This document shows positions 7,349 to 12,302 of a stretch of DNA of 12,306 nucleotides, one piece after another. A program made the translations under genes and the position numbers. The DNA is from Pedobacter sp. (GTDB lineage: Bacteria > Bacteroidota > Bacteroidia > Sphingobacteriales > Sphingobacteriaceae): NCBI GenBank assembly GCA_028287885.1, contig JAQBOT010000011.1:1-12306 (forward strand). Reading direction: 5' to 3'. Under the pieces are notes generated by a model. It was not told the origin of the DNA. It searched no databases and saw only the letters and a program-made list of their open reading frames with translations. Each line of letters starts with the position of its first letter. Position 1 is the first letter of the stretch.

Positions 7349-8239
7349 TTATATAAAGACTTCGTAATTCGTTTTTTCTAGGACCAAACACTTATAAGCA
7401 CGTTGAAGGGTTGCTCCGATGCTCTCGCTCCACTTCAACGGAAATACCGTTTCATCAACAGACTTCATCCCGATAATTTCTGCGGCAGTGCCACATAGGA
7501 ACGCGCTGTCTGCCTGTTTTAGATCCGTTACCGTCAGTTGCGTTTCGATACATTCAATATCAAGCTTTTTGCAAAGCACCAATAAAGTCGCCCGGGTAAT
7601 TCCAGGTAGTATGTTTCCAAGCTCGGGCGTATATAACTTGCCGTTTTTTTCCAAGAACAGATTTGCCCCAGGAGCTTCTGCAATAAAATTTCCCTGGTCC
7701 AGTAAAACGGCTTCATCATACCCACGTGCCTTGGCTTCAGTTGTAGCTAAAATAGAGTTTACATAATGACCGCTTACCTTTGCCTGGATAGGAGTGGACT
7801 TCGGATTTGGCCGTTGATAATTCGAAATACATACTCGCACTAGCTTGTCGCCTAGATATGCTGCCCAGTCCCATGCACAGATCATAATAGAAACATTTGA
7901 GGGTTCTGTTAACGACATATTTGCGTGGCAATAGACTAGCGGACGTATATAGGCATCTTTAAAGTTATTCAGCTCCAGAACTTTGTATGTCTGATGTATC
8001 AGATCATTGATGTCCCAGTTAAATGGAATATGAACAAGTTCACATGATTTTTTCAAACGTTGGTAATGCGCTTTGGCTTTGAAAATTCGGGTACCGTTGT
8101 GCGTGTTGTATGCACGGATCCCTTCAAACGCCGCATAGCCATAATGTAACGATTGGCTGTATAAGTCTGTCTTTGCGTCTTCCGATTTAACAATTTCACC
8201 GTCCAGGTATAAAAGTGTTTTCGAATTGTAGTACTGCAT
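7349..8239 (-). CDS. ilvE: Branched-chain amino acid aminotransferase (fold-type IV PLP enzyme)
   Basis: Transfers an amino group, usually from glutamate, to the 2-oxo acids of valine, isoleucine and leucine; the last step for all three. The 296 residues match bacterial class IV aminotransferases. Family signs include '[14 protein letters not shown]' (31-44), the probable PLP Lys154 in IQAKVSGHY, Glu188 in AEAPGANLF (binds the pyridine nitrogen), GITRATLL (phosphate site), and '[14 protein letters not shown]' near the C-terminus. The Glu188 motif reads EAPGANLF where EGxGENLF is common, a mild variation. D-amino acid transaminase or aminodeoxychorismate lyase share this fold, but the operon position next to ilvD makes the BCAT role very likely. 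It is the first structural gene after the leader and attenuator. The ATG at 8239 has no strong Shine-Dalgarno, as is usual in this phylum. Confidence 0.95.
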
Positions 8240-8270: not shown

Positions 8271-8302
8271 TATAATAAAAAAGCGCCTTGTTTGGGCGCT
8301 TT
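8271..8302 (-). terminator. Intrinsic terminator in the ilv leader (attenuator stem 3:4)
   Basis: On the minus strand AAAGCGCC (8302-8295) and GGCGCTTT (8287-8280) form a perfect 8-bp stem around a 7-nt loop. The U-run continues past the stem (TTTTTTATTATA across 8282-8271). It lies between the leader peptide and ilvE, about 32 nt before the ilvE ATG, so it would stop the operon's own transcript before its first gene. Its 5' arm (AGCGCCC, 8300-8294) can pair instead with GGGCGC at 8340-8335, which is the expected antiterminator. On the plus strand it has only three Ts, so the minus-strand reading is favoured. Confidence 0.8.
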
Positions 8303-8340
8303 CCGTATATGTTTGTATTCAAGTCATTTACAGCGCGCCC
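8294..8340 (-). promoter_or_regulatory. Candidate antiterminator pairing (segment 2:3)
   Basis: GGGCGC at 8340-8335, inside the last codons of the leader peptide, is exactly complementary to GCGCCC at 8299-8294, the 5' arm of the terminator. Six consecutive G-C pairs would form with a 35-nt loop, and they cannot coexist with the terminator. A ribosome stalled on the upstream Ile/Leu/Val codons would leave segment 2 free and allow read-through. A ribosome reaching the stop codon at 8330-8328 would cover segment 2 and favour termination. The pairing is visible in the sequence; the mechanism is inferred from classical attenuators. Confidence 0.6.
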
Positions 8341-8411
8341 GTCTCCTGAATAATCAGCAGAATATTTACGTTAAGTAGGAGGTTGACACGATTGATAATG
8401 AAGCTGTACAT
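8328..8411 (-). CDS. ilv operon leader peptide (27 aa, rich in Ile/Leu/Val)
   Basis: This 27-codon frame starts ATG at 8411 and stops TAA at 8330-8328, 88 nt before ilvE. Thirteen of 27 residues are branched-chain: Ile5-Ile6, Val9, Leu11-Leu12-Leu13, Val15, Ile17, Leu18-Leu19, Ile20-Ile21 and Leu27. Such runs, placed directly upstream of a branched-chain amino acid operon and just before an intrinsic terminator, are the hallmark of a ribosome-sensing leader peptide. All three amino acids are represented, which fits an operon carrying both ilv and leu genes. The codons for residues 18-23 (8360-8343) can also form a short hairpin CTGCTGA/TCAGGAG with one mismatch and a 4-nt loop, a possible pause structure. 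Upstream is an A-rich stretch but no clear Shine-Dalgarno. The peptide itself probably has no function after translation. Confidence 0.8.
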   Translation of the reverse strand: MYSFIINRVNLLLNVNILLIIQETGAL

Positions 8412-8441
8412 TGTATTGTTTTCTTTGTTGTTTCTTAAAAA

Positions 8442-8472
8442 CCAATTTAGTTTTTGGTGTAGACAACGACAA
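8442..8472 (-). promoter_or_regulatory. Putative ilv operon promoter (Bacteroidota type)
   Basis: On the minus strand, TTG at 8472-8470 is followed after 20 nt by TAAATTGG at 8449-8442. This is one base from the Bacteroidota -7 consensus TAnnTTTG, and the spacing fits the -33/-7 geometry of the phylum's main sigma factor. Transcription would start near 8435, about 25 nt before the leader-peptide ATG. The same TTG-to-TA spacing of 20 nt occurs in the tRNA promoter of this window. No mapped start site is available, so this is a motif match only. Confidence 0.5.
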
Positions 8473-12228: not shown

Positions 12229-12302
12229 GCATTCGTAGCTTAATTGGATAGAGCACCTGACTACGGATCAGGAGGTTAGGGGTTCGACTCCCTTCGAGTG
12301 CA
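12229..12302 (+). tRNA. tRNA-Arg, anticodon ACG
   Basis: A full cloverleaf is visible. The acceptor GCATTCG pairs with CGAGTGC (one G-U pair). The D arm is GCTT/GAGC. The anticodon stem is CCTGA/TCAGG with loop CTACGGA, anticodon ACG at 12263-12265, and the T arm has loop TTCGACT. The discriminator base is A at 12302, and the next bases are CAC, so the 3' CCA is not encoded and must be added enzymatically. A34 would be deaminated to inosine to read CGU, CGC and CGA codons. Confidence 0.96.

Follow-up and report, generated by a model that had tools for sequence, protein, structure and literature searches.

The ilv-leu operon of this Pedobacter genome is very probably controlled by a ribosome-mediated transcription attenuator that lies directly ahead of ilvE. 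In a 12,306-nucleotide stretch of DNA (the window), a short frame rich in Ile, Leu and Val codons precedes an intrinsic terminator, and the end of the frame can pair with a strand of that terminator to form an antiterminator instead. The anatomy of this element, its conservation, the cognate pairing of its strands and its geometry can be read from the DNA and from comparison with relatives. On a wider scale, we consider it fairly probable that attenuation of branched-chain amino acid operons occurs throughout this class of Bacteroidota with leader codons that track the content of the operon, and that part of Pedobacter carries two attenuators in series: a Leu/Ile/Val-coded one before ilvE and, ahead of ilvD, one that is coded nearly purely with Ile and has a separate promoter box.

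We infer translation of the window leader, stalling, termination, the response to amino acids and the promoter from the arrangement of the element, and propose the following mechanism. RNA polymerase would start upstream of the leader, at a site suggested by conserved boxes there, and a ribosome would translate the 27-codon frame. If charged Ile, Leu or Val tRNA were short, the ribosome would stall in control codons 5-21 and leave GGGCGC (region 2) free to capture GCGCCC (region 3) before the 3' arm of the terminator exists; the resulting antiterminator would allow transcription to continue into ilvE and the rest of the operon. With ample supply of all three, the ribosome would reach the stop codon and cover GGGCGC, the terminator would form, and transcription would end after roughly 160 nt, counted from a start site predicted near 8435.

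A leader frame and terminator ahead of ilvE

The preliminary description of the window had claimed a 27-codon frame with 13 Ile, Leu and Val codons, a GC-rich hairpin with a U-tract ahead of ilvE, and complementarity between GGGCGC and the 5' arm of that hairpin, and each of these is present (Table 1). Leu accounts for six of these 13 codons, Ile for five and Val for two. In the window, as in relatives, a short frame thus has clustered codons for the amino acids that the operon serves to make. The terminator hairpin, AAAGCGCC-CAAACAA-GGCGCTTT (8302-8280), is GC-rich, folds at -10.9 kcal/mol and is closed by a run of six T at 8282-8277, from which 37 nt remain to the ilvE ATG at 8239; 88 nt separate the leader stop from the ilvE start, with this intrinsic terminator between them. 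GGGCGC is the exact complement of GCGCCC, the sixth pair taking the first base of the terminator loop. In the window, region 1 folds with 8347-8334 at -13.9 kcal/mol, and this pairing is also part of the centroid structure of the whole leader. As a whole, the leader RNA folds only mildly better than its shuffles (z -1.93, with 8 of 200 shuffles equally good; z -2.00 in a second run). By eye, no Shine-Dalgarno-type start was apparent at the window leader.

Table 1. Features of the ilv-leu locus in window coordinates.
Feature	Position	Strand	Remarks
Candidate promoter, TTG 8472-8470 + 20-nt spacer + TAAATTGG 8449-8442	8472-8442	minus	function predicted from sequence
Leader ORF	8411-8328	minus	27 codons + stop, ATG 8411, peptide MYSFIINRVNLLLNVNILLIIQETGAL
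Region 1, CGTGTC + CTCCT	8390-8377	minus	5' side of possible 1:2 pause hairpin
Region 2, antiterminator 5' strand GGGCGC	8340-8335	minus	within final leader codons
Region 3, GCGCCC	8299-8294	minus	common to antiterminator and terminator
Intrinsic terminator (regions 3:4)	8302-8277	minus	counterparts in relatives
ilvE, branched-chain amino acid transaminase	8239-7349	minus	NCBIfam NF005146/TIGR01122
ilvD, dihydroxy-acid dehydratase	7344-5647	minus	TIGR00110
ilvB, acetolactate synthase large subunit	5616-3874	minus	TIGR00118
ilvN, acetolactate synthase small subunit	3893-3246	minus	TIGR00119; frame limits, true start may lie inside
ilvC, ketol-acid reductoisomerase	3183-2113	minus	TIGR00465
leuC, isopropylmalate dehydratase large subunit	2100-685	minus	TIGR00170
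leuD, isopropylmalate dehydratase small subunit	673-83	minus	TIGR00171; window stops just past gene

The leader site sits between the atpD-atpC genes and the run ilvE-ilvD-ilvB-ilvN-ilvC-leuC-leuD. The earlier expectation that at least seven genes lie behind the leader is borne out by these seven, and the nearest sampled relative adds leuB, leuA and ilvA to the run, after an intervening ABC ATPase gene. That gene of the relative, between leuD and leuB (L177:4703-6130), is ModF-like by an NCBIfam match below the cut-off. At the other end of the window lies a tRNA gene (12229-12302, Rfam RF00005).

Two simple accounts of the hairpin were rejected. A generic terminator scan of the window did not list the ilvE leader hairpin, and its sole listing was the atp terminator at 8791-8758; because this strong atp terminator is separate, the leader hairpin is not merely the end of the atp operon. 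Nor is the site a known Rfam element, since a search with 4227 families (E up to 5) gave no match at the leader site of the window and ten relatives matched no family at the gathering threshold. The covariance model of Bacteroid-trp RNA (RF01692), an RNA that holds a Trp leader, matched neither the window nor the genome it comes from.

Conservation of the leader in close relatives

An ilvE protein search of the family matched 71 of 151 genomes at E 1e-100, and a named collection supplied seven loci with ilvE, all from Pedobacter, which marks the genome of the window as Pedobacter-like. Just ahead of ilvE, an Ile/Leu/Val-rich leader frame is present at 19 of 20 same-genus loci, the window included and L007 excepted, and at 6 of the 7 named Pedobacter loci, the miss being L037; these two misses probably represent one species. 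P. duraquae (L033) is among the species that have the leader at ilvE. In a second genus, g18, the leader is present at 13 and missing at four of the 17 loci examined (17 of its 18 matches were taken in). The sampled loci of g16 and g4 have no leader ahead of ilvE, save for L044 of g16, which is a probable false positive, and those of g14 have none ahead of ilvD. The wording of the leader diverges widely (for example MNTIILNIVNNLINNIILLIIQEKTAL, MTIQNNIITNNTAATVAVNVVLLPVIILNLLLLNILPGKKTGSF and MLFIILLIIVINLLLIGKKRKACLS), and the last codons are mostly able to pair with the leader's own terminator arm. A comparison of relatives upstream of ilvE had been suggested as a check on the element, and its outcome is favorable: close relatives again show an Ile/Leu/Val-rich frame, and again show pairings that exclude one another, despite the drift in wording.

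For counting, we used a fixed rule that asks for an Ile/Leu/Val-rich ATG frame ending at most 60 nt from a terminator and at most 420 nt from the gene. This rule was positive at 100 of 307 ilvE or ilvD starts, and 89 of these 100 are distinct. Of the 13 leaders of g18 it failed to detect 8, and it also passed over L025 (g21), where leader and hairpin are visible; its positive set includes L044, which together with L026 (g13) is counted in the Pedobacter ilvE group of the folding tests below. Among the 54 distinct ilvE leaders, the codon pair GTC ATT occurs in 36; in some loci only, GTCATT may pair with bases past the stop.

Coordinated change of the pairing strands

The three pairing strands shift together between groups of attenuators. 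They read GGCGCT/AGCGCC/GGCGCT in part of Pedobacter and GAGGTGG/CCGCCTC/GAGGCGG in the ilvD leaders, and in g18 AAGGCAT or AAGGCGT occurs with ATGCCTT or ACGCCTT. For 19 representatives, which like the 18 + 10 aligned sequences were picked by hand after earlier results, the leader tail and its cognate arm pair at a mean of -12.45 kcal/mol, versus -8.91 kcal/mol when tails and arms are swapped, and 0 of 20,000 permutations reached so low a value; L015 and L155 are the members of this set with poor cognate pairing. Measured against codon shuffles of the leader, the cognate duplex falls in the best 5% in only 35 of 89 attenuators.

Within g18, the 8-bp antiterminator of 10 sequences pairs in 93.8% of cells, compared with 36-51% in slid controls; letter shuffles reach 91.2%, and 9 of 500 are as high as observed. 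One pair of this antiterminator changes in a compensating manner, being G-C in 5 sequences, A-U in 4 and unpaired in 1. The terminator pairs of g18 hardly vary and do no better than shuffles as evidence of covariation. In a MAFFT alignment of group A, the terminator arms of L001 and L004 were out of register.

Modelled ribosome position and the predicted choice between hairpins

To model the switch, a ribosome was walked along the leaders under an assumed footprint: counting from where the A-site codon begins, no base pairs were allowed within the next 12 nt or behind. For the complete RNA at equilibrium, the window leader is predicted to switch. Ribosome positions 1-15 and 18-20 give the antiterminator, and 16-17 and all from codon 21 to the stop give the terminator; the outcome at 16-17 speaks against the model. 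Only 10 of the 89 attenuators are predicted to switch in this way at full length, compared with 8 among 890 codon shuffles; for most of the remaining attenuators, the terminator is favored wherever the ribosome stands. This result speaks against a purely thermodynamic switch, so that the proposed mechanism would need kinetics, that is, co-transcriptional capture of the shared strand. When the RNA is cut before the terminator 3' arm, the state in which polymerase has only just completed the loop, 83 of 89 attenuators keep the antiterminator open for a ribosome at half or more of the Ile/Leu/Val codons and close it for one at the stop codon, where codon shuffles lead one to expect 36.9. By group, these were 48/49, 24/24, 5/5 and, at class level, 6/11 (3.1 expected).

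We also asked where along each leader the masking sets in, using 124 attenuators. For this set, class-sample leaders were trimmed to an internal ATG where at least 7 Ile, Leu or Val residues remained, and spacer pairs were counted as antiterminator, unlike in the test of 89. Masking begins 0-3 codons past the Ile/Leu/Val run in 110 of the 124 (25.8 expected from codon shuffles), and in 105 of the 124 this onset is joined by a strand that is closed when the ribosome is at the stop codon (expectation 20.7). Judging by the coincidence of boundaries in these 105, the run ends in most attenuators where the modelled ribosome begins to cover the antiterminator strand. The antiterminator is predicted to exclude the terminator, to be masked by a ribosome at the stop and to be left free by one stalled at the control codons; in 8 of 46 class-level attenuators it is still open at the stop. 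Across these 124 natural variants, the wording of the leader drifts and the geometry is mostly fixed.

Candidate promoter

The preliminary description had placed a phylum-type promoter upstream of the leader. Conserved boxes are indeed present: TTG-N20-TAAATTG(G/T) lies ahead of all 47 distinct Pedobacter ilvE leaders in the rule-positive set (L044 of g16 and L026 of g13 excluded), the -7 box reading TAAATTGG or TAAATTGT. The phylum-type label, on the other hand, does not fit, since TTG-N17-21-TAnnTTTG occurs ahead of 0 of the same 47, and the conserved box is therefore not the usual TAnnTTTG box of the phylum. TAAATTG(G/T) resembles TAnnTTGY, motif SM5 of PMC9723704, which passages of that paper set apart from the sigma-A box and link to amino-acid scavenging genes, among others.

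Spread across the class and codon content

The class-level sample drew on ilvD matches at E 1e-150, which 28 of 149 genomes gave, and on ilvC matches at E 1e-30, which 77 of 396 gave, and part of these were taken in, including 49 further genomes of the 77 ilvC matches and 6 extra stretches. The fixed rule was positive at 46 of 177 gene starts and at 44 of 76 loci, and negative at the remaining 32; this test omits six loci without gene matches (L194, L210, L228-L231), and three genomes occur in it twice. In 885 dinucleotide shuffles the arrangement did not arise once, and a chance frame is therefore rejected. Counting the family of the window, 17 of 21 tested families have an Ile/Leu/Val-rich leader and a terminator before ilv genes; f26, f32, f55 and f63 have no rule-positive locus, and f72 lies outside the tested set.

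The Leu content of the leaders differs with the genes that follow. Among 43 attenuators with enough flanking DNA, the Leu share of Ile, Leu and Val in the densest 15 residues is 0.37 where leu genes are in the run (12) and 0.21 where they are not (31), a difference with Mann-Whitney p = 0.0035 when kinship is ignored, Pedobacter and one f15 group making up 10 of the 12. One L236 frame, which is the tail of ilvB, and L272, whose genome shows a leader at L063, were omitted from this set. A higher Leu share ahead of leu genes fits the sensing of end products, although the cases are not phylogenetically independent. In family f12, a Val/Ile leader precedes ilvB, and upstream of ilvD at three f12 loci (L161, L165 and L167) lies a common hydrophobic peptide of 41-63 residues with a Pro-rich tail.

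A predicted second attenuator between ilvE and ilvD

Part of Pedobacter has a further leader between ilvE and ilvD, for example MNLNTNIISNLIIIISQERGGYRCV, which is coded mostly with Ile and followed by a terminator of its own, AACCGCCTC..GAGGCGGTTTT. It is seen at L012, L017, L020, L132, L133, L138, L145 and L149, among others, and the fixed rule detects both leaders at 18 loci. Of 23 ilvD leaders, 22 are preceded by a TATGTTTG box, which is of the type usual in the phylum. All 24 ilvD leaders of the L<150 set, among which L126 belongs to another genus and has ilvD first, are predicted to switch when folded before the 3' arm. At L009, L132, L133, L138, L145 and L149, as read from the DNA, ilvE and ilvD are separated by an additional gene that looks like a methyltransferase; the second leader sits behind it in L009 and in loci of the L132 type. 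The series arrangement before ilvE and ilvD is the most unusual part of the system.

Alternative explanations

The short frame might instead encode a functional small hydrophobic protein, for instance a membrane protein, with the hairpin as its own terminator. About half of the leader residues are hydrophobic, and the longer peptide with the Pro-rich tail at the three f12 loci does look like a real protein. Membrane helices, however, typically include Ala, Phe, Gly and Met. In the cores of 76 leader peptides (the densest 15 residues), Ile accounts for 26%, Leu for 27%, Val for 14% and Asn for 13.5%, whereas Ala, Phe, Gly, Met, Trp and Cys together make up about 5%. This composition is unlike that of membrane helices as they are generally known, on which ground a small membrane protein is rejected, and what persists as the wording drifts is the Ile, Leu and Val content and the pairing of the last codons to the terminator, so we regard a protein-coding role as very improbable. 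Equally slight is the chance that the leader senses nothing and merely boosts translation of ilvE by reinitiation: PMC4833913 does propose that leader genes act by reinitiation and gives a peak of distances at 11-14 bp for Bacteroidetes, but the leader stop lies 88 nt from ilvE with a terminator between, and 17 of 21 families have Ile/Leu/Val-rich leaders with terminators before ilv genes. Control of the same terminator by a metabolite riboswitch, a T-box or an RNA-binding protein has next to no probability in our estimate; some relatives have no leader and may use other regulators, but neither the window leader nor the ten relatives matched any Rfam family in the searches described above.

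A closer question is which amino acids matter. Attenuation might operate with only one or two of the three, such as Leu or Val, the others being bystanders, and we hold this to be possible if rather doubtful. In its favor, the rare codon GTC makes up 34% of leader Val codons versus 7% in the window genes, the Leu codons CTC and CTA are also raised, and the ilvD leaders between genes are coded almost only with Ile. Against it, the codons of the window leader cover all three amino acids (5, 6 and 2 for Ile, Leu and Val), and in the co-transcriptional model each of them except the final Leu codon is a position at which stalling would keep the antiterminator open. We favor attenuation in which the leader would sense all three amino acids.

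Relation to known systems

In enterobacteria, it is textbook knowledge that attenuation controls ilv and leu operons, namely ilvGMEDA, ilvBN and leuABCD. The Pedobacter element shares with these attenuators the runs of Ile, Leu and Val codons, the alternative pairings, the terminator with its U-tract and the ilv and leu genes downstream. It differs in belonging to another phylum, in matching no Rfam family, in showing no Shine-Dalgarno-type start by eye and in placing one leader before a combined ilv-leu cluster headed by ilvE, to which some Pedobacter add the second leader before ilvD. A comparative attenuation study of 2010 (Lopatovskaya and others) may already include some of these leaders. 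Outside Proteobacteria, PMC10272879 and PMC11857589 report a leader and attenuator for Corynebacterium ilvBNC, where an ilv operon is likewise preceded by a leader frame that is conserved and by hairpins that are alternatives to each other; that system is from another phylum, and the likeness noted here is one of arrangement.

Closer to Pedobacter, PMC9723704 reports that amino-acid operons of Flavobacterium psychrophilum, a member of the same phylum and another family, show strong signs of control by leader-peptide attenuation, and 'ilv' has no word-start occurrence in the main text of that paper. Leader-like short frames in Bacteroides are mentioned in a passage of PMC7366714, and a section of PMC2864571 lists Bacteroid-trp RNA (RF01692) as a candidate RNA of Bacteroidetes; the latter shares the phylum with our element but concerns trp rather than ilv and, as noted, has no match here. 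PMC2965389 uses neither Bacteroid nor Flavobacter as a term in its main text. For an ilv attenuator in Bacteroidota or Pedobacter, the literature searched yielded only general statements.

The element is a concrete and testable prediction of an RNA switch that would govern an entire pathway, few attenuators having been characterised in this phylum, and its leader frame is probably too short for ordinary gene callers. Because switches of this kind need a ribosome close behind RNA polymerase, they predict coupled transcription and translation; if the switch works as described, Bacteroidota must couple ribosome and polymerase on these leaders. Some bacteria, Bacillus subtilis for example, do without such coupling. 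If true, coupling would occur here in a phylum that initiates translation without Shine-Dalgarno signals.

Other loci of the same genome

Beyond the ilv-leu operon, the genome of the window was searched for leaders of other amino-acid pathways. Among the matches to runs of His codons, no short His-rich frame had a terminator beside it, and runs of Phe codons gave no match; HisG itself (PF01634), present in 13 of 14 control genomes, was not matched in this assembly, which is 92% complete. For a homoserine dehydrogenase frame, no terminator or leader was seen in about 350 nt upstream. At L277, a GTG-start frame containing Trp-Gln-Trp (VIKNIHTWQWRSNSKKSFVAVLCTL) precedes a terminator about 90 nt upstream of a trpE-like gene, and this frame is a possible trp attenuator of a kind unmatched by RF01692.
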